Assembly: GCA_945882215.1 (NCBI GenBank)
Contig: CAMCWM010000001.1
Location: 1 to 64,000 of the forward strand
Source of the DNA: Akkermansia muciniphila
GTDB lineage: Bacteria; Verrucomicrobiota; Verrucomicrobiia; Verrucomicrobiales; Verrucomicrobiaceae
DNA length: 64,000 nt
Direction of reading: 5' to 3'
The translations under genes were made by a program, and so were the position numbers. Every line of letters begins with the position of its first letter. Positions within the stretch are counted from its first letter, which is position 1. This document shows, one piece after another, positions 15,478 through 27,881 of this stretch. The notes under the pieces were generated by a model. That model did no database searches, was not told the origin of the DNA, and saw nothing but the letters and a program-made list of their open reading frames with translations.

Positions 15478-15891
15478 ATGAAAACACTATTCACGTCAGA
15501 AGCGATTTCCAAAGGTGGCCGATCAGGAACGCTACAGTCGCCGGACGGACTCCTGGATGTCGCTCTGGGAAACCCGCTGGAGAAGGGCATCGAGACGCGC
15601 GGTCCGAATCCCGAGTTGCTGTTTGCTGGGGCCTATTCCGCCTGCTACCACGGAGCCTTGGTCAATGCGGCCAAGAAGCTTGGCACACCACTCGACGATT
15701 CCACGGTGCGCGCCCTGGTGAGCCTGGTTGAGGATGATAATAATGGCTATGGTCTTGCCATTGAGCTGCACGCACTGCTTCCTGACGTGGGTCGCGAGCA
15801 GGCACAACGCATCATGGAGGAAGCACACCAAACCTGTCCTTACTCCAAAGCATTGCGAGGCGAGGCTTCCTTCAAGCTCGTCGTGGATTGA
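15478..15891 (+). CDS. OsmC/Ohr family peroxiredoxin
   Basis: 137 aa, full length. The two catalytic cysteines are in SACYHGALVNAAKK and in the TCPYSKA motif; the N-terminal GGRSGTLQSPDGLLDVALG and GPNPELLFAGAYSAC match Ohr. These enzymes reduce organic hydroperoxides through a disulfide cycle, usually with lipoyl partners. Last box-controlled gene before the 13-kb sulfur/copper block. Confidence 0.88.
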   Translation: MKTLFTSEAISKGGRSGTLQSPDGLLDVALGNPLEKGIETRGPNPELLFAGAYSACYHGALVNAAKKLGTPLDDSTVRALVSLVEDDNNGYGLAIELHALLPDVGREQAQRIMEEAHQTCPYSKALRGEASFKLVVD

Positions 15892-15914
15892 ATGAACTTT
15901 TACCCACTCAATCC

Positions 15915-16457
15915 ATGAACCCGCTAACAAAAACATCCTGGTCGCCCTACCTCGTCGGCGTTGGAATCGGCGTGTTGAGTTGGTTCTCTTTTGCGACGGT
16001 TGACCGGCAGCTCGGAATCACCACGGCCTTTGAATATAGCGCCGCGCTCACTGAACAGGCGACGGCACCGCAAGTCGTGAAGCCCTATCTCGAAGCGAAG
16101 GCAAAGGACGGCAAGACGCCGAAGATCGACTGGGAATGGATGCTGGTGCTCGGTGTTTTTATCGGAGCTTATGCCAGCTCGAAGATGTCGGGAGATCGAG
16201 CGCCGGAGGAGAAAGTGCCACCCCTTTGGCGCTGGCGGTTCGGCGATTCGCCGGGCCTGCGCTACGCTGGTGCTTTCTTCGGCGGGATCATTATGATGCT
16301 GGGCGCACGGATCGCGCAGGGCTGCACCAGCGGGCATGCGATCAGCGGCATCTTGCAACTGGCGCTCTCAAGCTGGATCTTTGCGCCCGTCATGGGTGTG
16401 ACAGGCATGGCTGTGGCATTCCTGATCTACGGGAAGGAGGGACGTCGCCATGTTTGA
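15915..16457 (+). CDS. YeeE/YedE family sulfur transporter, first half, pair 1
   Basis: 180 aa, about five membrane segments. Carries the family motif QGCTSGHAISG (about residue 138) with the conserved Cys that relays thiosulfate or another sulfur compound in YeeE. The partner half, with the CPGT motif, begins before this gene ends (8-nt overlap). Such split halves together equal one full-length YeeE. An N-terminal helix (SWSPYLVGVGIGVLSWFSF) is shared with the paralogue at 18430. Confidence 0.85.
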   Translation: MNPLTKTSWSPYLVGVGIGVLSWFSFATVDRQLGITTAFEYSAALTEQATAPQVVKPYLEAKAKDGKTPKIDWEWMLVLGVFIGAYASSKMSGDRAPEEKVPPLWRWRFGDSPGLRYAGAFFGGIIMMLGARIAQGCTSGHAISGILQLALSSWIFAPVMGVTGMAVAFLIYGKEGRRHV

Positions 16458-17010
16458 TGAACCGGTCAAACTCGTGCTCGGTCTGGTCACCGGCATCCTC
16501 TTCGGCGTCCTGCTGCAAAAAGGCCAGGTGGCGAAGTTCCAAGTTCTTATGGGTCAGTTTCTGCTCAAGGATTTCACCGTGGTGAAGATCATGGCGATGG
16601 CCATCGCGGTGGGCACTGTCGGCGTGCATGCACTGGTGTCGATGGGCTTGGCGGAGTTTCACATTCAGACCGCTTCGCTGGCGCGTGTAATCGTCGGTGG
16701 AGTGTTGTTTGGCACTGGCCTCTCCATCTTCGGGCTTTGTCCCGGCACTAGCGTCGCTGCCTGCGGCGAAGGTCGGCGCGATGCGATGATCGGCGTGCTA
16801 GGGATGTTCGTCGGCGCTGGCGTCTATGTGGCCGCATTTGAGGCGTTGCAGCCGATGATCAAAGCAATGGCGGACTATGGGAAAGTGACTCTGCCACAAC
16901 TCACCAGCACCTCGCCGTGGCTGTGGGTGGGCGCACTGGTGGCTCTTATCGCCATCGCTCTCGCGATCGTCGAGCGACTTCATCCCAAACGACTAAACAC
17001 CAAACTTTAA
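16450..17010 (+). CDS. YeeE/YedE family sulfur transporter, second half, pair 1
   Basis: 186 aa, about five membrane segments. Contains LFGVLLQKGQVAKFQVLMGQFLLKDFTVVK and the conserved Cys in FGLCPGTSVAACGEG. Coupled by overlap to the first half. Followed after 16 nt by the CstB-like enzyme, suggesting that imported sulfane sulfur is handed to it. Confidence 0.85.
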   Translation: MFDEPVKLVLGLVTGILFGVLLQKGQVAKFQVLMGQFLLKDFTVVKIMAMAIAVGTVGVHALVSMGLAEFHIQTASLARVIVGGVLFGTGLSIFGLCPGTSVAACGEGRRDAMIGVLGMFVGAGVYVAAFEALQPMIKAMADYGKVTLPQLTSTSPWLWVGALVALIAIALAIVERLHPKRLNTKL

Positions 17011-17026
17011 AAGATCCCCAAAAATC

Positions 17027-18433
17027 ATGGCACTCATCTTTGAACGCATTCAAACCGAAGGCATCGCGGAGCTTTCTTATCTCCTCGGTGATGACAGCGA
17101 CGGCGTTGCAGCCGTCTTTGATCCGACTCCTGACGTGGACAAATACGTCACGCTGGCACGCGAGAAGAAGGTTTCCATCACGCACATATTCGAGACACAC
17201 ATTCACGCGGACCTGGTGAGCGGCTCGCTAGAGTTGTGCGCGCGGGTCGGATCGGCAAAGGTGTATTGCAGTCATGAAGGCGACGCCCGTTATGGCTTCG
17301 ATCACGAAAAGCTAAAGGCCGGTGACAAGTTTACATTCGGGAAGACGATCATCACGGTGCGCCACACGCCAGGACACACGCCTGAGCATGTGAGCTACGA
17401 GATCGCGGAAAAGGATCATCCTGACACGCCGTGGGGCGTGCTGACTGGCGACTCACTTTTTGTAAACTCCGCGGGCCGGCCCGATCTGCTCGGCTCAAGT
17501 GAAACTGAGGAACTCACGAAGAAGCTGTTTGAAACACTGCGCGGGTATTATCTCGCGCTGCCGGACAGCGTCGTGATTCATCCCGCGCATGCCCATGGTT
17601 CGCCATGCGGCGCGGACATCGGCGACCGTCTTGAGAGCACCATCGGCTATGAGCGGAAGTTCAATTCCTACCTCCAGTTCACCGACTTCGAGAAGTTCAA
17701 GGAACATACCCTGAGCAGCGCGCCGCCGGTGCCGAAGTATTACCCGCTGATGAAGAAGCTGAACGCCAAAGGGCCGGAGGTACTCGGCAATCTGCCGCAA
17801 GTTCCCGGCCTGCCAGCAAAGACTTTCAAAGAGGCCGTGGAGAAAAAGGCCGGGGTACTGGTGGATACGCGGCAGATGCTGGCATTCGGCGGCGGTCACA
17901 TCAAAGATGCGCTGAGCATCGGTGCCACACCCATGCTTTCGATCTGGGCGGGCTGGCTGCTCGATCCGGATAAGCCGATCCTGCTCGTGCTCGATAGCGA
18001 TAAAAAAGTGGACGAGGTGGTGAAGTTCTTTCTCCGCACCGGCTTCACAAAGTTCGCAGGTTATCTCGTCGGCGGAATGACGGCCTGGGACAATGCAGGG
18101 CTGCCGCTGGATGAGGTCGGGCAGAAGACCGTGCATGAAGTCAAGGACGCCGGCCCGGGCTTGCAGATCGTGGACGTGCGCTCGCCTGGCGAATGGCAAA
18201 AAGGGCATGTGCCCGGAGCCGTTCACATGTTCCTGCCGGAACTGCGCGAGAAGGCCGCCGCGCTGAATTCAAAAAAGCCCGTCGCTGTGTATTGCGAAAG
18301 CGGTTATCGCGCGAGCATCGGCACGAGCATTCTGAAACAAGAAGGCTTCCTGCAGGTGAGCAACGTGCCAGGAAGCTGGCAGGCGTGGAAAAAGGCGAAG
18401 CTGCCCATCGCAGGCGGAGGTGATGACGCATGA
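17027..18433 (+). CDS. CstB-like persulfide dioxygenase with two rhodanese domains
   Basis: 468 aa. Residues 1-250: ETHE1-type metallo-beta-lactamase dioxygenase with iron ligands in THIHADLVSG, HTPGHTPEHVSY and the Asp of TGDSLFVNSAGRPDLLG. Residues about 265-360: rhodanese-like domain whose active-site loop lacks Cys (LLVLDSDKKVDEV), a pseudo-rhodanese. Residues about 370-465: active rhodanese with Cys in VYCESGYRAS. This is the three-part plan of staphylococcal CstB, which oxidises persulfides and produces thiosulfate. It is flanked on both sides by YeeE/YedE pairs and its TGA overlaps the next ATG. Confidence 0.88.
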   Translation: MALIFERIQTEGIAELSYLLGDDSDGVAAVFDPTPDVDKYVTLAREKKVSITHIFETHIHADLVSGSLELCARVGSAKVYCSHEGDARYGFDHEKLKAGDKFTFGKTIITVRHTPGHTPEHVSYEIAEKDHPDTPWGVLTGDSLFVNSAGRPDLLGSSETEELTKKLFETLRGYYLALPDSVVIHPAHAHGSPCGADIGDRLESTIGYERKFNSYLQFTDFEKFKEHTLSSAPPVPKYYPLMKKLNAKGPEVLGNLPQVPGLPAKTFKEAVEKKAGVLVDTRQMLAFGGGHIKDALSIGATPMLSIWAGWLLDPDKPILLVLDSDKKVDEVVKFFLRTGFTKFAGYLVGGMTAWDNAGLPLDEVGQKTVHEVKDAGPGLQIVDVRSPGEWQKGHVPGAVHMFLPELREKAAALNSKKPVAVYCESGYRASIGTSILKQEGFLQVSNVPGSWQAWKKAKLPIAGGGDDA

Positions 18434-19020
18434 AGCGGCGTCTCTCAGTGATGGTGCTGTTGTTGCTGCCGTCGTTGACAAGCGCGGCGGATTTTGGCGT
18501 GGACGCCACTCACTACGACGGCCCGGCGTGGTCGCCTTACATCGTCGGTGCGGGGATCGGTGTGCTGTCGTGGCTAACATTCTATTTTTCCGACAAGCCC
18601 ATCGGTGCCTCGTCCTTTTACGCGACCGTCGCCGGGTTCATCGGCAGGCTCGTCGCGCGCCGACACACAGAATCGCTTTCGTATTTCCAAAGCAATCCGC
18701 CCAGCGTGAATTGGGGTTTCGTGTTCGTCATCTGCACCATCCTGGGCGGTTTCATCGCTGCGTGGACGGGCGATGAGATTCGCAATGAATGGCTGCACCC
18801 GATGTGGGTGGATCGCTTCGGCGACAGCATCGCGTTGCGGGGGATCGTCGGCTTCATCGGCGGTGTGCTGATGGCCTTTGGCTCGCGGCTTGCGGGTGGT
18901 TGCACCAGTGGTCACGGCATCAGCGGCACACTCCAGCTGAATTCTGGCTCCTGGCTCACAGTTATCTTCATGTTCATCGGTGGCATTGCCACCGCCATGC
19001 TCCTCTACACCGCGTTATGA
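18430..19020 (+). CDS. YeeE/YedE family sulfur transporter, first half, pair 2
   Basis: 196 aa. An extra N-terminal signal-like helix (MKRRLSVMVLLLLPSLTSA) precedes the family domain; AGGCTSGHGISG carries the conserved Cys. Paralogue of the gene at 15915 but clearly diverged, so the two pairs are an old duplication or independent acquisitions with different substrates. It overlaps the CstB-like gene by 4 nt (ATGA). Confidence 0.85.
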   Translation: MKRRLSVMVLLLLPSLTSAADFGVDATHYDGPAWSPYIVGAGIGVLSWLTFYFSDKPIGASSFYATVAGFIGRLVARRHTESLSYFQSNPPSVNWGFVFVICTILGGFIAAWTGDEIRNEWLHPMWVDRFGDSIALRGIVGFIGGVLMAFGSRLAGGCTSGHGISGTLQLNSGSWLTVIFMFIGGIATAMLLYTAL

Positions 19021-19607
19021 TCGATCCTGGCAAAGCAGTCAAAGAAACCAGTGCGCCACCTCCAACGGTGCCTGCTGGCAAGAAACTCGTGGCCGCGATC
19101 ATCTTCGGCACCGCCTTTGGCTTCCTTTTGCAAAAAGGCGGTGTCGGCAAATACAACGTCCTCATCGGCCAGCTCCTGCTCCAGGACTTCACCGTCGCCA
19201 AGGTCATGATGACCGCCATCGTCGTGGGAATGATCGGTGTTTTCACGCTGCATCATTTCGCAAAGGTCAATCTGGACATTCATCCGACCAGGATCGGCGC
19301 GCAGATCATCGGCGGCATGCTGTTTGGCGTCGGTTTCGCGCTCATCGCTTACTGTCCAGGCACCGGCGCGGCTGCTCTCGGACAGGGAAGCTGGGACGTG
19401 CTCTTTGGCATGGCCGGCCTAGTTGCCGGATCTTATTTGTTTGCCGAGATGTCCGGCTGGCTGAAGCGCACCGTCGAGACGTGGGGCGACAAAGGCAAGG
19501 TCATGCTCCCAGACCTCCTGCACATCCCGCGCGGCGTTTTCGTCCCCGCCTTCGCCCTGCTGCTGATAGCCGCGCTCTTCGCGATCGAGCGCTTTAGCAC
19601 ACGCTGA
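19017..19607 (+). CDS. YeeE/YedE family sulfur transporter, second half, pair 2
   Basis: 196 aa. After a short cytoplasmic N-terminus come FGFLLQKGGVGKYNVLIGQLLLQDFTVAK and the Cys motif LIAYCPGTGAAALGQG. Overlaps the first half by 4 nt. Together with it likely forms one inner-membrane sulfur-compound channel. Confidence 0.85.
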   Translation: MIDPGKAVKETSAPPPTVPAGKKLVAAIIFGTAFGFLLQKGGVGKYNVLIGQLLLQDFTVAKVMMTAIVVGMIGVFTLHHFAKVNLDIHPTRIGAQIIGGMLFGVGFALIAYCPGTGAAALGQGSWDVLFGMAGLVAGSYLFAEMSGWLKRTVETWGDKGKVMLPDLLHIPRGVFVPAFALLLIAALFAIERFSTR

Positions 19608-19625
19608 CTTCTCACACTGATTCTT

Positions 19626-20081
19626 ATGAAAACACTGCTCAAAACCATCGCATTCGCCGCGCTTACCGCGCTCCCGCTCACTGCCATGACTGCCGAACCC
19701 GAAAAGTCGTCCGCCGACAAAGCTCACAAGGTCGTCTTTGAAGTCTCCATCGACGGCGCGGAGAAATGGCAGGGCGCGTTGCGCAACATCGAAAACACCC
19801 GCAAGGAACTCGGCAAGGAAACGATCATCGAAGTCGTAACGCACGGCAAAGGCGTCGGAATGCTGCTCGTGAAGACCTCCGTCGAGAACGCCGAGCTGAA
19901 AGCGAAGCTCGAACAGCTCCACGCCGACGGCGTCGTTTTCGCCGCGTGCCAGAACACCATGAAGCGCGAGAAGCTGGAGAAGAAGGATCTCGTCGAGCTG
20001 TCCACGACAGTCCCTTCTGGCGTCAGTGAAGTCGTTCGCAAACAGGCCGCTGGCTACGCCTACATCAAGAGCGGCGGCTGA
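19626..20081 (+). CDS. exported DsrE-family sulfur-relay protein
   Basis: 151 aa. Signal peptide at 1-23 (LPLTAMTAEP), then a DsrE/DsrF-like alpha/beta domain (VVFEVSIDGAEKWQGALRNIENTRKELG; IEVVTHGKGVGMLL) with a conserved Cys in VVFAACQNTMKRE. DsrE proteins carry persulfide sulfur. The periplasmic form suggests it delivers or receives sulfur outside the inner membrane for the YeeE/YedE channels. Lies 18 nt after pair 2. Confidence 0.8.
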   Translation: MKTLLKTIAFAALTALPLTAMTAEPEKSSADKAHKVVFEVSIDGAEKWQGALRNIENTRKELGKETIIEVVTHGKGVGMLLVKTSVENAELKAKLEQLHADGVVFAACQNTMKREKLEKKDLVELSTTVPSGVSEVVRKQAAGYAYIKSGG

Positions 20082-20135
20082 TCCCGGAGTCCCCAGAGCG
20101 TTGGCCCTTCACAATAATCAAACACACCAAACGAT

Positions 20136-20828
20136 ATGAATGTTCTCATGATATTAACCTCCCACGACAAGCTGGGTGACACAGGCAAGAAGACCGGCTT
20201 TTGGCTGGAAGAATTTGCAGCTCCTTATTACGTCCTGCTTGATGCCGGAGCGAAAATCACGCTGGCATCTCCTGCGGGCGGGCAACCGCCGCTCGATCCG
20301 CAAAGCGACCTTCCTGATGCGCAAACCGCGGCGATGCAGCGTTTCAAAAAGGACGATGCTGCACAAAGGGAACTCGCTAACACGACCCAATTGGCCGAGA
20401 TAGATGCCGACGGGTTTGATGCGGTCTTTTACCCGGGTGGGCATGGCCCGCTTTGGGACTTGGCGGAAAACGCAGACAGCCAGCGCATCATCGAAACGTT
20501 CATCGCGGAGGATCGTCCGCTCGCTGCGGTGTGCCACGCTCCGGCGATCTTCAAGCACACAAAAGGGGGCGACGAAAAATCGTTGGTCTCGGGTCGCCGC
20601 GTGACGGGCTTTACGAACTCTGAGGAAGAGGGGGTTGGTCTCACCGAAATTGTTCCGTTTCTTATTGAAGACATGCTCAAAGCAAATGGGGGTCTCTATG
20701 AAAAAGGCCCGGATTGGGGTTCAAACGTCGTCGTCGATGGCAAGCTCGTTACGGGTCAAAACCCCGCATCCTCCGAAGCTGCCGCCAAGGAGCTGCTCAA
20801 GCTTCTCTTGGCAAAGCACAACTCATAG
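20136..20828 (+). CDS. DJ-1/PfpI family (Hsp31-like) protein
   Basis: 230 aa. The nucleophile elbow Cys is in AAVCHAPAIF and an acidic partner in FYPGGHGPLWDL. The GFWLEEFAAPYYVLLDAGAKITLASPAGG start is typical of Hsp31/YajL-like chaperone and glyoxalase III proteins. The likely role is methylglyoxal or protein-glycation and oxidative-stress defence. It ends the first half of the sulfur block. Confidence 0.87.
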   Translation: MNVLMILTSHDKLGDTGKKTGFWLEEFAAPYYVLLDAGAKITLASPAGGQPPLDPQSDLPDAQTAAMQRFKKDDAAQRELANTTQLAEIDADGFDAVFYPGGHGPLWDLAENADSQRIIETFIAEDRPLAAVCHAPAIFKHTKGGDEKSLVSGRRVTGFTNSEEEGVGLTEIVPFLIEDMLKANGGLYEKGPDWGSNVVVDGKLVTGQNPASSEAAAKELLKLLLAKHNS

Positions 20829-20911
20829 CCAGCCAGCTACGAGCTGACCTACTCGAATGGCGCTTACTAGCTGAAAACCGAAAGGAATCTTCAGGTGCTG
20901 AAACCACTCCA

Positions 20912-22666
20912 GTGAAATGGTTCCAATCCATCCCCTCGTGGCTGAAGCGTTTGATCCCGGCGCTGGACTGGATATGTCATTATGACCGCAAGCATCTGCC
21001 CGGCGATGGACTCGCGGGGGTGATCGTGGCGACGCTGGTCATCCCCCAGGCCATGGCGTTTGCGCTGCTCGCCGGGCTGCCGCCGCAGGTCGGCGTTTAT
21101 GCCAGCCTGTTGCCACTCGCAGTTTATGCGTTGCTCGGCACCAGTCGGTTTCTGTCGGTCGGCCCATCAGCGCTGATATCGCTGCTCATCCTGACGCAGG
21201 TCGGCGCATTGGCGGAGCCCGGTTCACCGCGCTATCTCGCATTCGCCATGGCCACCGCGCTCATCGCGGGTGTCATGCAGATCGCAATGGGGGCCGCGCG
21301 GCTGGGGGTGCTCACGAACTTTCTCAGCCACCCGGTGCTCTCCGGCTTTACCAGTGCCGCGGCGTGTCACATCGCGTTGAGCCAGATGAAACATCTGCTC
21401 GGCGTGCCGCTTCCGAGGGCCGACCATGTGCACGAGTTGCTGGCGGAACTGGCGCGGGCGGTGCCGCAAACCCGCTGGCCCACGCTCGCGATCAGCATCG
21501 CGAGCGTTTTGCTGCTGCTCGCATTTCAATACCTGCTGCCGCGGGTGCTTGCGCGATGGAAAACGTTCCCGGCTGCCCTCGCTCAATCGCTGTCGAAGAG
21601 CGGGCCGGTTGTCGTGGTGATCGCCGGCACGGCCATCGTCGCCGCTCTCCAACTCGGGACGAGCCACGGGGTCAGCATCATCGGGGAGATACCAGGCGGA
21701 TTACCGGGGTTCGCGCTGCCCGCGCTCGCCGCTTCCGAGTTCCTGCCGCTGATTCCGCTCGCCCTCACGGTCAGCTTCGTCGGTTATGTCGAGACCATTT
21801 CCATCGCGAAGTCGCTCGCGGCCAAACGACGCCAGAAAGTGGATGCCAACCAGGAGTTCATCGCGCTGGGGGCGGCGAACCTTGCCGCCGGTGTCACCGG
21901 CGGTTACCCGGTCGATGGCTCGTTCGCCCGCTCGATGGTCAACTTCACCGCCGGCGCACACACCGGCCTCGCTTCTCTCATCACCATGATCCTTGTGGGC
22001 GTGGCCGCATTGTTTCTGATGCCGCTCTTCCACCATTTGCCCCAGGCAGCGCTGGCCGCCATCATCATCATCGCGGTCATCGGCTTGGTCGACGTCCGGA
22101 TGCCGCTTCGACTCTGGCGCTACAACAAGGCGGACGCCGCCGCGTTGCTCCTCACATTCAACGCGGTGCTCGCCGTCGGGGTCACAAAAGGCATCCTCAT
22201 CGGCGTGGCCGCGACTGTCGCGCTCTACCTCTGGCGCACGAGTCGGCCGCACATGGCCGTCGTCGGACGCATCGCCAACACCGAGCACTTTCGCAACGTT
22301 CGCCGCCACGATGTGCAAACGCTCCCGCACGTTCTCCTGCTGCGCATTGACGAGAGTCTCTACTTCGCCAACGCGAAACACGTCGAGGACTTCGTCCTCT
22401 GCGCTACCGCCGACCGCCCGCATTTGCGGCATCTCGTGCTCATTTGCAGCGCGATCAATTTCATTGATGCCAGCGCGCTTGAGACGCTCACTGACCTCCG
22501 CGCCAGCTTACAAGACGCAGGCATCGAACTCTATCTCACCGAGGTGAAAGGCCCCGTGATGGACCGGCTGGCGCACACCGAGTTACTCGAACAGCTCGGT
22601 TCCGAACGCATCTTCCTCACGACTCAGGAGGCTTATGAGAAACTCGCGTCAGCAAGCCCTGCATGA
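20912..22666 (+). CDS. SulP family anion permease with STAS domain
   Basis: 584 aa from GTG 20912. About 10-12 membrane helices (residues 25-440) with SulP motifs (LVIPQAMAFALLAGLPPQVGVYASLLP; SVGPSALISLL; VDGSFARSMVNFTAGA), then a cytoplasmic STAS domain (about 465-575; LICSAINFIDASALETL). SulP proteins move sulfate, bicarbonate or other anions; the sulfur context favours sulfate. Translation upstream of GTG 20912 in the same frame overlaps the preceding gene and does not look like SulP, so the GTG start was chosen. A decayed fragment of a relative lies at 27660-27881. Confidence 0.88.
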   Translation: MKWFQSIPSWLKRLIPALDWICHYDRKHLPGDGLAGVIVATLVIPQAMAFALLAGLPPQVGVYASLLPLAVYALLGTSRFLSVGPSALISLLILTQVGALAEPGSPRYLAFAMATALIAGVMQIAMGAARLGVLTNFLSHPVLSGFTSAAACHIALSQMKHLLGVPLPRADHVHELLAELARAVPQTRWPTLAISIASVLLLLAFQYLLPRVLARWKTFPAALAQSLSKSGPVVVVIAGTAIVAALQLGTSHGVSIIGEIPGGLPGFALPALAASEFLPLIPLALTVSFVGYVETISIAKSLAAKRRQKVDANQEFIALGAANLAAGVTGGYPVDGSFARSMVNFTAGAHTGLASLITMILVGVAALFLMPLFHHLPQAALAAIIIIAVIGLVDVRMPLRLWRYNKADAAALLLTFNAVLAVGVTKGILIGVAATVALYLWRTSRPHMAVVGRIANTEHFRNVRRHDVQTLPHVLLLRIDESLYFANAKHVEDFVLCATADRPHLRHLVLICSAINFIDASALETLTDLRASLQDAGIELYLTEVKGPVMDRLAHTELLEQLGSERIFLTTQEAYEKLASASPA

Positions 22667-22681
22667 TGCAACCCCAAGAAA

Positions 22682-23626
22682 ATGAACCCAGATCTGCAGC
22701 ATGTAAAACAATCGAACGGGTGGCGAACTCTCAAGCTGGCCCGCGCTCGTTGGGCGGAAGTGGATGGCGACCAGCGCGCCGCAGCTTTCGGTTATTACCT
22801 GCTGCTGTCACTCCTGCCTTTGATATTGATGCTGGTGAGTGTCGGGTCGCTGTTCGTCGAGCGCGAGGTGGCGACGCGCGAGATTGTCCAGTGGGTCAAT
22901 CATTACATTCCGTTGACGAGCGAACAGAAACACGACGCCGAGACAAACATTCGCGGCGTGCTGGAGTCGCGTGGCGGACTCAACCGCGCAGCGTTTCCCC
23001 TGTTGGCATGGGGCGCGTTGAAATTCCTGCGCACACTGATTCGGACCACGAACCGCATCTGGCATTCGCCGACTTACAACTGGTGGCGACTGCCATTGAG
23101 AAGCCTCGGCTTGCTCGGCATCACGGCCAGCGCTGCGTTGTTCGGAGTTCTCGTGCCCGGCGCTGCGCGGTTGGTGCAACGGTGGCTCATCCACTATCTC
23201 GACATTCCCTCGTGGGTATTGGACGTGGTTCTGGGTTTCATTCCGTGGCTGGTGCTGTTCTACGGGATCATCATGATTTACAAGCTGGCCCCCAGCCGGC
23301 CCACCAAGTTTGCCGAAGTCTGGCTCGCCGCGCTGGGCGCGACGGTCTTGATCTGGACGGGCGGACTGCTGTTCCTGCTTCAAGCGGCGCACCTGGGGCG
23401 CTTCAACGCGCTTTACGGTACCCTCGGCAGCATCGTGGCGTTCCTGCTGTGGCTTTACCTCTCAAGCTGCGTGGGTGTCTTCGGCACCTGCTTTTGCGCG
23501 GCGCAGGCGGAAGTCCAGAAGAACGACGCCAGCGATCATCCGAGTGATGAGCGCAAAGAAATCGCTGAAATGAAAGCCCTCATTGCAGATCTCGAAGCCC
23601 AGAAATATCCCACCTCACTAAAATGA
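22682..23626 (+). CDS. YihY/BrkB family membrane protein
   Basis: 314 aa with about six membrane helices; the family pattern AAAFGYYLLLSLLPLILMLVSVGSLF and LYGTLGSIVAFLLWLYLSSCVGVFGTCFCAAQAEVQ is clear. The molecular role of the family is unsettled. A second member is encoded at 33008. Its TGA overlaps the start of the multicopper oxidase (ATGA). Confidence 0.83.
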   Translation: MNPDLQHVKQSNGWRTLKLARARWAEVDGDQRAAAFGYYLLLSLLPLILMLVSVGSLFVEREVATREIVQWVNHYIPLTSEQKHDAETNIRGVLESRGGLNRAAFPLLAWGALKFLRTLIRTTNRIWHSPTYNWWRLPLRSLGLLGITASAALFGVLVPGAARLVQRWLIHYLDIPSWVLDVVLGFIPWLVLFYGIIMIYKLAPSRPTKFAEVWLAALGATVLIWTGGLLFLLQAAHLGRFNALYGTLGSIVAFLLWLYLSSCVGVFGTCFCAAQAEVQKNDASDHPSDERKEIAEMKALIADLEAQKYPTSLK

Positions 23627-25986
23627 AAAGTATCATCTTCACGTTATCTGTTCTGGCTAACTTTGCCTCCGCCAAAACCGTCGAATACAAGATCACCATC
23701 ACTGAGGAAAGGGTGAACATCACTGGCAGGACCGTCACGGGAATGACCATCAACGGCAGCATACCAGGCCCGACCCTGCGCTTCACCGAAGGGGACACCG
23801 CCGTGATGCATGTCACCAACGCGATGGACGTGCCCACTTCCGTCCATTGGCACGGCCTGCTGGTTCCGCCGGATATGGATGGTGTTCCGTTCATCTCCTA
23901 TACCCCCATCAAGCCGGGCAGCACTTTCACCTACCGTTTTCCGATCCGGCAGACGGGCACTTACTGGTATCATTCCCATTCAGGATTGCAGGAGCAGCGC
24001 GGAGTCTATGGCTCCATCGTGATCCTGCCAAAGCAGAGAAACCATGGTGAGGACAAGGATCATGTGGTCGTGCTTTCGGATTGGACGGATCAGAACCCGA
24101 AGGAAATCCTGCGCAATCTGCGTCGCGGCTCGGAATTTTTCGGTGTGCAAAAGAAAACCGCACAGAGCGTTCTGGGTGCCGCGAAAACCGGAAAGCTGAG
24201 CGAGTATTTCCAAAGGGAGGCGATGCGCATGCCCGCGATGGATCTCGCGGATGTCGCCTACGATTCGTTTCTCGTGAATGGAAAACTCGAGGAAACCCTG
24301 TCTGCGAAACCCGGCGAAACCGTCCGGCTACGGGTGATCGATGGCTCTGCCAGCACCTTTTTCCATCTCAGCTACGCGGGCGGTCCCCTGACCATCGTCG
24401 GGGCGGACGGGCAGCCGGTGGAGCCTGTGAAAATGATGAAGCCACTCCTCATCGGAGTGGCGGAAACTTACGATGTGCTCGTGACAGTCCCCGCGCACGG
24501 AGCCTGCGAATTCCGCGCGACCGCGCACGATGGCTCCGGCCACAGCTCGCTCTGGATCGGCTCCGGCGAGCGCAGGCCCGCAAGCGTTCTGCCCAAGCCC
24601 TTCCTCTATGACACGATGATGGGCTTCAACTGGAAGAACGCCTTCGCGCTCACTCCCGCAGGCACGATGGGGATGCCCGACCGCGATGTGGATGCCGGGA
24701 AATTCGACAAGCCTGGAATGAATATGGATATGGACATGGGAGGAATGTCGCCTGGCGGAAACATGAAAATGCCGAAGGCAATGAAAGGAATGGATCACTC
24801 CGGGATGGATATGTCCGGCATGGATCACAGTGCGATGAAGGAACCCGTCATGAATCATTCGAAAATGAAGATGGAGATGAAAGACATGTCTTCCATGCCG
24901 GAGATGGACAAGGACACGGGGGTGAAGCACAACCTGCCGAAGTGGTATGATTTTCTCCTCCGTGAAGATACCGCGCGCTCGCAGATGTTGGACACCGACT
25001 CCATGATGTCGAAGGAGCGCCCGTTTCCACCCTACAAAATGCTTCGGGCGGTGAAAAACACCTCCTTTCCGAAGAGCGCCTCGCGCCGGGATTTCCGGCT
25101 CACCCTTGATGGTGATATGAACCGCTACGTGTGGACGATCAACAACAAGCCGGTCAGCCCGGACACAGACATCCTCATCCGCGAAGGCGAAGTGATCCGT
25201 TTCATCATGATTAACCGCACCATGATGCATCACCCAATGCACCTGCACGGGCACTTTTTCCGCGTCATCAACGGCCAAGACGACCGCTCGCCGCTGAAGC
25301 ACACCGTCGATGTCGCGCCAATGACCACGGTCGTCATCGAATTCATGGCGGACGAGCCGGGCGACTGGTTTTTCCACTGTCACCTGCTTTACCACATGAT
25401 GAGCGGCATGGCCCGCGTGGTGGAATACCAAGGCTTCACCCCGGCTTCGGAGACTGCGAGAATTCGCGATGAAATCTATGCGAAATCAAATCCATGGTTC
25501 TTCTACGGCTATGCCGATCTCCTCAGCAATGAAACACAGGGCACACTCACCTTTTCCGATCCCCTGAATATCTTCGCGCTGAACTGGGAGGCGGGCTGGG
25601 CCCGCACGGCAGGCACCGCGTGGGAAGGCGATCTCACTTACGGCCGCTACTTCAACCGCTTCACCACTCTCTTCGCCGGGGTCTATGCGGAGGGTGTGAA
25701 TTCCACCAGCGAGGACGAGCGGGCGATCGCCGGCATCCGCTATCTTCTTCCTGGGAATTTCCAGTCCCAGGCATGGATCGACGATAGAGGCGAGGCCCGG
25801 TTCATGCTGGGTCGCGAACTCATGCTGACCCCACGGCTAGGAATTTTCGGGGAAGTCGAGTATGACACGATTGAGGCATGGTCTTACCAAGCGGGCATTT
25901 CTTATGCACTCACCCAGTACCTTTCCACCACCGCTCTGTGGGATTCCAAATTTGGGGTCGGAGTGGGACTCACTTTCAGATTCTAA
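23623..25986 (+). CDS. multicopper oxidase (CopA-like) fused to CopB-like outer-membrane barrel
   Basis: 787 aa. Signal peptide (1-17), three cupredoxin domains with copper ligands HWHG, HSHSG, HHPMHLHGHFF and HCHLLYHMMSGM, and a Met/His/Asp-rich insert (about 365-430, repeats such as MDHSGMDMSGMDHS) as in CopA/PcoA. After the last copper motif (about residue 605) the chain continues without a stop into about 175 residues that look like CopB/PcoB: short alternating beta strands (TFSDPLNIFALNWEAGW; DLTYGRYFNRFTTLFAGVYAEG; SYALTQYLSTTALWDSKFGVGVGLTFRF) ending in Phe as outer-membrane barrels do. CopA and CopB are normally separate adjacent genes. Likely role: periplasmic Cu(I) oxidation with outer-membrane anchoring. 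Confidence 0.85.
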   Translation: MKSIIFTLSVLANFASAKTVEYKITITEERVNITGRTVTGMTINGSIPGPTLRFTEGDTAVMHVTNAMDVPTSVHWHGLLVPPDMDGVPFISYTPIKPGSTFTYRFPIRQTGTYWYHSHSGLQEQRGVYGSIVILPKQRNHGEDKDHVVVLSDWTDQNPKEILRNLRRGSEFFGVQKKTAQSVLGAAKTGKLSEYFQREAMRMPAMDLADVAYDSFLVNGKLEETLSAKPGETVRLRVIDGSASTFFHLSYAGGPLTIVGADGQPVEPVKMMKPLLIGVAETYDVLVTVPAHGACEFRATAHDGSGHSSLWIGSGERRPASVLPKPFLYDTMMGFNWKNAFALTPAGTMGMPDRDVDAGKFDKPGMNMDMDMGGMSPGGNMKMPKAMKGMDHSGMDMSGMDHSAMKEPVMNHSKMKMEMKDMSSMPEMDKDTGVKHNLPKWYDFLLREDTARSQMLDTDSMMSKERPFPPYKMLRAVKNTSFPKSASRRDFRLTLDGDMNRYVWTINNKPVSPDTDILIREGEVIRFIMINRTMMHHPMHLHGHFFRVINGQDDRSPLKHTVDVAPMTTVVIEFMADEPGDWFFHCHLLYHMMSGMARVVEYQGFTPASETARIRDEIYAKSNPWFFYGYADLLSNETQGTLTFSDPLNIFALNWEAGWARTAGTAWEGDLTYGRYFNRFTTLFAGVYAEGVNSTSEDERAIAGIRYLLPGNFQSQAWIDDRGEARFMLGRELMLTPRLGIFGEVEYDTIEAWSYQAGISYALTQYLSTTALWDSKFGVGVGLTFRF

Positions 25987-27525: not shown

Positions 27526-27881
27526 ATGAATAGACTCAAACACCTCGGGAGCCATTTGCGCTCAAGCTTTTGGTTTCTGCCGACGCTCATCGTCGCGTGC
27601 AGCATCGTCCTTGCCGTGGGTTTGATCGAATTGGATTCCTCAGGGAGCCGCGACATGATGGGTGCCGCGTTGATCCTCACTTTCATCGCGGGGCTTGCCG
27701 TCGGGGTTACGAAAGGCATCACCGGACCCACCTGCACGATGCGGATATCCAGCTTCATCTCGCCGAGGTCAAAGGCCCCGTCATGGACCGGCTCGCCCGC
27801 ACGGAGTTCCTCGACCAACTCGGCCATGACCACGTCTTCCTCTCAACCCAGGCAGCCTATGAAAGGCTCGCCGCAGCCTGA
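27526..27881 (+). pseudogene. chimeric remnant: DUF2254 N-terminus joined to SulP/STAS fragments
   Basis: The ATG frame begins like a DUF2254 membrane protein (HLRSSFWFLPTLIVACSIVLAVGLIELD), then switches to a stretch nearly identical to the SulP helix at 22137-22200 (AALILTFIAGLAVGVTKGI). The rest matches the C-terminus of the STAS domain, but in another frame (HLAEVKGPVMDRLARTEFLDQLGHDHVFLSTQAAYERLAAA). The middle of SulP is deleted and a frameshift separates the parts. A decayed recombination product, not a working gene. Confidence 0.72.

Follow-up and report, generated by a model that had tools for sequence, protein, structure and literature searches.

In the pco/cop operons of E. coli and Pseudomonas, the oxidase PcoA/CopA and the barrel protein PcoB/CopB are encoded by two genes, in that order. 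PcoB (structure 7PGE) forms a barrel of 12 strands whose two termini face the periplasm, and it is found only together with PcoA (PMC9210255); it carries a His/Met-rich disordered arm, while the oxidase mostly uses Tat. In Caulobacter vibrioides, where the two genes are separate and overlapping, oxidase and barrel are functionally linked: PcoA is stabilized by PcoB, and the His/Met-rich N-terminal arm of PcoB is needed for function (PMC12509749). Reports disagree on whether PcoB imports or exports copper (PMC9210255, PMC12509749), and a role in Fe(II) oxidation, with PcoAB acting as a porin-oxidase system, has also been put forward (PMC5566968).

Fused forms have been described as well. PcoA and PcoB were reported in one polypeptide in five Legionella species in 2012 (PMC3548706). 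In 2024, the Bizionia argentinensis multicopper oxidase G2EDV6 was found to have a signal peptide, three Cu-oxidase domains, and a C-terminal porin-like region (residues 611 to 809) similar to PcoB (PMC11213822).

Here we describe a fused gene in a 64,000-nucleotide stretch of an Akkermansia muciniphila contig (the window). It keeps the oxidase-barrel order of the pco/cop operons and, going by the published descriptions, resembles the Legionella and Bizionia proteins in architecture; the latter belongs to Bacteroidota, and its tail was recognized solely by domain annotation and sequence similarity. An earlier note on this DNA had implied that such a fusion is rare. It is in fact already published and, as shown below, widespread across phyla; with an oxidase and a CopB-like barrel in one frame that recurs in other genomes, the window gene is another member of the fused PcoA-PcoB group.

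Oxidase and tail share one reading frame

The gene is a single uninterrupted frame of 787 codons with no internal stop (Table 1), and the earlier description of a CopA-type oxidase followed in frame by a CopB/PcoB-like barrel agrees with our domain searches and structure prediction. Pfam models Cu-oxidase_3, Cu-oxidase, and Cu-oxidase_2 (PF07732, PF00394, and PF07731) all score far over their cutoffs, and the four histidine motifs are present together with a C-x3-H-x4-M type-1 site. With all copper ligands in place, the protein falls within the multicopper oxidase superfamily; the copper motifs are nearly invariant across relatives. VIA-align matched the full-length model to 6vow with a Z of 37.6 over 370 residues. 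The best NCBIfam model for the oxidase is TIGR01480 (copper resistance CopA), although the score of 432.6 bits does not reach the curated cutoff of 478.95 bits. Residues 360 to 440 contain 20 Met and 4 His. As the earlier note stated, the only signal peptide lies at the N terminus; it is short and of the Sec type, and a motif scan of the protein found no twin-arginine signal of the kind usual in unfused CopA/PcoA.

Table 1. Features of the fused gene in the window
Feature	Position	Strand	Details
Fused multicopper oxidase/CopB-like barrel gene	23623..25986	+	787 aa, stop codon included
Sec-type signal peptide, short (~18 aa), without twin-arginine motif	23623..23676	+	Sequence reading, motif scan; cleavage site inferred
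Three-domain multicopper oxidase, residues ~19-606	23677..25440	+	Pfam PF07732, PF00394, PF07731; VIA-align to 6vow
Copper motif HWH, residues 75-77	23845..23853	+	
Copper motif HSH, residues 117-119	23971..23979	+	
Met-rich disordered insert, about residues 366-430	24718..24912	+	AlphaFold2 model, residue counts
Copper motif HPMHLH, residues 537-542	25231..25248	+	
Copper motif HCHLLYHMMSGM, residues 585-596, trinuclear and type-1 ligands	25375..25410	+	
Oxidase-barrel linker, short predicted helices, residues 607-625	25441..25497	+	AlphaFold2 model
CopB/PcoB-like 12-stranded outer-membrane barrel (predicted), residues 626-787	25498..25983	+	AlphaFold2, 7PGE match, profile comparison

Given the full protein and 41 relatives, AlphaFold2 (pLDDT 82.8, pTM 0.84) placed a barrel of exactly 12 strands in the C-terminal part (residues 626 to 786), with 10-residue blocks from residue 631 at pLDDT 89 to 97. 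In the same model the Met-rich residues 368 to 437 are disordered. Since the full-length model retrieved only oxidases with Foldseek and VIA-align, it was necessary to fold the tail by itself, which again gave 12 strands (pLDDT 93.3). PcoB (7PGE) was the best match of this model both in Foldseek searches of the PDB (E = 6.4e-7) and in VIA-align (Z 17.3, 162 residues, rmsd 3.2). Among unrelated porins the best reached Z 15.3, and other 12-stranded porins and OMPLA scored Z 14 to 15, so the fold alone is insufficient to settle the homology of the tail. Sequence comparison goes further: hhalign aligned the tail profile to six CopB proteins with probabilities of 89 to 94% over 84 to 98 columns (E about 1e-6 to 1e-7 in one comparison), and Pfam CopB (PF05275) scored over its cutoff on the tails of fused frames in two relatives (G044 and G052). 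PF05275 gave no match to the window protein at E values up to 1, and the tail alone matched nothing in Pfam or NCBIfam. A tail-sequence search of solved structures returned only the designed barrel 9fdg, which was taken as a composition match. By predicted fold plus sequence profiles, the tail is a CopB/PcoB-like 12-stranded barrel.

An aromatic C-terminal residue is the usual signal for barrel assembly. The window protein ends in Phe787, and all 65 fused proteins checked end in an aromatic residue; the earlier note had the terminal Phe right and the length of the tail, which is about 162 rather than 175 residues, too long. There is no disordered His/Met-rich arm ahead of the barrel, only the short helical linker, and the Met-rich insert lies inside the oxidase. 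The tail contains neither His nor Cys; E668 and R675 are invariant in it across a 43-sequence set.

The fused gene follows a series of sulfur and stress genes that share one strand (positions 15888 to 23626), comprising split YeeE/YedE sulfur transporters in two pairs, a rhodanese plus metallo-beta-lactamase, DsrE, DJ-1/PfpI, a SulP permease, and BrkB. The BrkB stop codon (TGA, 23624 to 23626) overlaps the ATG of the oxidase gene, which suggests that the two are cotranslated. Copper-specific genes were not found adjoining the fused gene in the window. Downstream of an MscS gene, at ~27570 to 27881, lies a fragment that resembles the SulP permease (22666) over its STAS end (EVKGPVMDRLA...) and is a partial duplicate or a pseudogene.

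Distribution and origin of the fusion

The same fusion was sought in other genomes, and it recurred. Besides the window gene, the host genome carries two fused genes that share 48% identity with it, and the tail profile matched in 36 of 56 relative genomes. Among the 40 frames examined, 38 were long and fused; one lay at a contig end and one was broken beside an undetermined base. The broken frame (L043 in G028) stops at 482 aa, and the break is probably an assembly gap, not a split gene. A separate CopB gene was found in 1 of the 56 genomes; a canonical one (L167, G015:C523:2909-3493; E = 9e-71) was seen in a same-genus genome besides its fused genes.

An independent collection with one genome per species yielded 80 loci, 66 fused and 14 unfused, a ratio that is not a prevalence, since the scan was ranked by likeness to a fused query. 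From the last HCH motif on, fused loci encode 194 to 241 residues and unfused loci 18 to 48. Directly downstream of every unfused oxidase (14/14) lies a CopB gene, starting within ~15 bases of the oxidase stop; the fusion thus preserves the copA-copB order. Fused frames were seen in Verrucomicrobiota, Bacteroidota, Acidobacteriota, Nitrospirota, Thermodesulfobacteriota, Bdellovibrionota, and others. One fused gene (L083) is from Fusobacteriota, on the Ilyobacter polytropus plasmid pILYOP02, which was typed as conjugative and is a likely vehicle for passing the fusion from one phylum to another.

In a tree of 101 oxidase cores and two distant outgroups, built with a quick support method and uncertain in its root, one branch divides fused from unfused oxidases (support 85), and the fused genes probably go back to a single fusion event. 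The window copy groups with a same-order relative and with Deltaproteobacteria, Nitrospirota, and Acidobacteriota (support 99). The other two host copies fall in the main Verrucomicrobiota group and are 95 to 96% identical to same-genus proteins; by an identical record in the tree (L060 = L091), the genus of the host is Prosthecobacter or close to it. Because it lies outside the main Verrucomicrobiota group, the window copy may have been acquired horizontally.

Fused and unfused oxidases also differ in their export signals. Of the 14 unfused oxidases, 10 carry a Tat-like motif, against 1 of the 66 fused proteins (Fisher P = 6e-9, uncorrected for kinship); the difference comes close to a single observation, since the fused proteins form one clade. 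The sole fused match (L144) has its motif probably upstream of the true start, judging by sequence. A Tat signal is not strictly defining for the CopA/PcoA subfamily, since some unfused members, from Acinetobacter, also lack one. Chains that end in a barrel reach the assembly machinery unfolded, and Sec export is what would be expected for them.

Proposed function and alternatives

We consider it probable, at roughly 85%, that the window protein is a fused PcoA-PcoB (CopA-CopB) copper tolerance protein. For this count the single frame with oxidase domains, the 12-stranded tail, its match to PcoB, the CopB profile, the CopB gene downstream of unfused relatives, the aromatic ends, and the published ties of PcoB to PcoA (PMC9210255, PMC12509749). 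Against it count neighbors that are not copper specific, the TIGR01480 score below cutoff, the lack of a PF05275 match in the window protein, and the dispute over the import or export role of PcoB (PMC9210255 versus PMC12509749). Cuprous oxidase activity and copper tolerance are predictions for this protein.

In the proposed mechanism, Sec would export the fused chain, and the C-terminal barrel would enter the outer membrane so that the N-terminal end of the barrel faces the periplasm. The oxidase would remain on the periplasmic side, tethered at the barrel's inner mouth. There the cuprous oxidase would hand copper over to a copper-handling barrel, and fusion would hold the two partners at 1:1 and in the contact on which PcoA and PcoB apparently depend when made separately. 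In this picture, membrane insertion, the use of copper as substrate, its passage from the oxidase to the barrel, and any direction of flow are inferred. The proposal of the earlier note that fusion would keep Cu(I) oxidation at the outer membrane is a reasonable inference.

A broader reading, to which we give somewhat less than even odds, is that one ancient copA-copB fusion founded a separate lineage across many phyla, which lost Tat and became a self-contained oxidize-and-hand-over device with fixed stoichiometry. Since the barrel-bearing chain would reach the periplasm unfolded by Sec, the oxidase would take up its copper outside the cytoplasm. The distribution part of this reading is supported; the device part is a proposal.

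The barrel might instead be a mere membrane anchor without a transport role, so that fusion only localizes the oxidase. In favor of this, the long His/Met-rich N-terminal arm that PcoB requires in Caulobacter (PMC12509749) is missing from the tail, which has no His or Cys either. However, its conserved charged residues, E668 and R675, go beyond the needs of a plain anchor, and the Met-rich loop of the oxidase may replace the PcoB arm, which leaves this alternative unlikely.

We think it rather less probable still that copper is not the main substrate and that the oxidase works chiefly on Fe(II), Mn(II), phenols, or the like, with the barrel as an anchor or port for that substrate, the whole forming a porin-oxidase unit for metal oxidation. 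Multicopper oxidases have broad substrate ranges, which would allow this, as would the TIGR01480 score and the neighborhood noted above and the Fe(II) oxidation proposal for PcoAB (PMC5566968). On the other hand, the best curated subfamily is copper resistance CopA, the Met-rich insert is typical of cuprous oxidases, the barrel is of the CopB type, and copper genes adjoin fused homologues on plasmids. Finally, a sequencing error or missed stop joining two genes, for which nothing speaks, is refuted by the three fused copies in the host genome and by fused frames in many independent assemblies, isolates included.

Significance

The literature searched, which excluded most subscription journals, does not state that the fused form spans many phyla, that it probably arose once, or that it almost never carries a Tat signal. 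Searches for a separate copB, or with Pfam CopB only, miss the barrel half in Bacteroidota and Verrucomicrobiota. The fused proteins offer a ready 1:1 complex for structural work, and the occurrence of such a fusion in nature argues strongly that PcoA and PcoB act as one unit.
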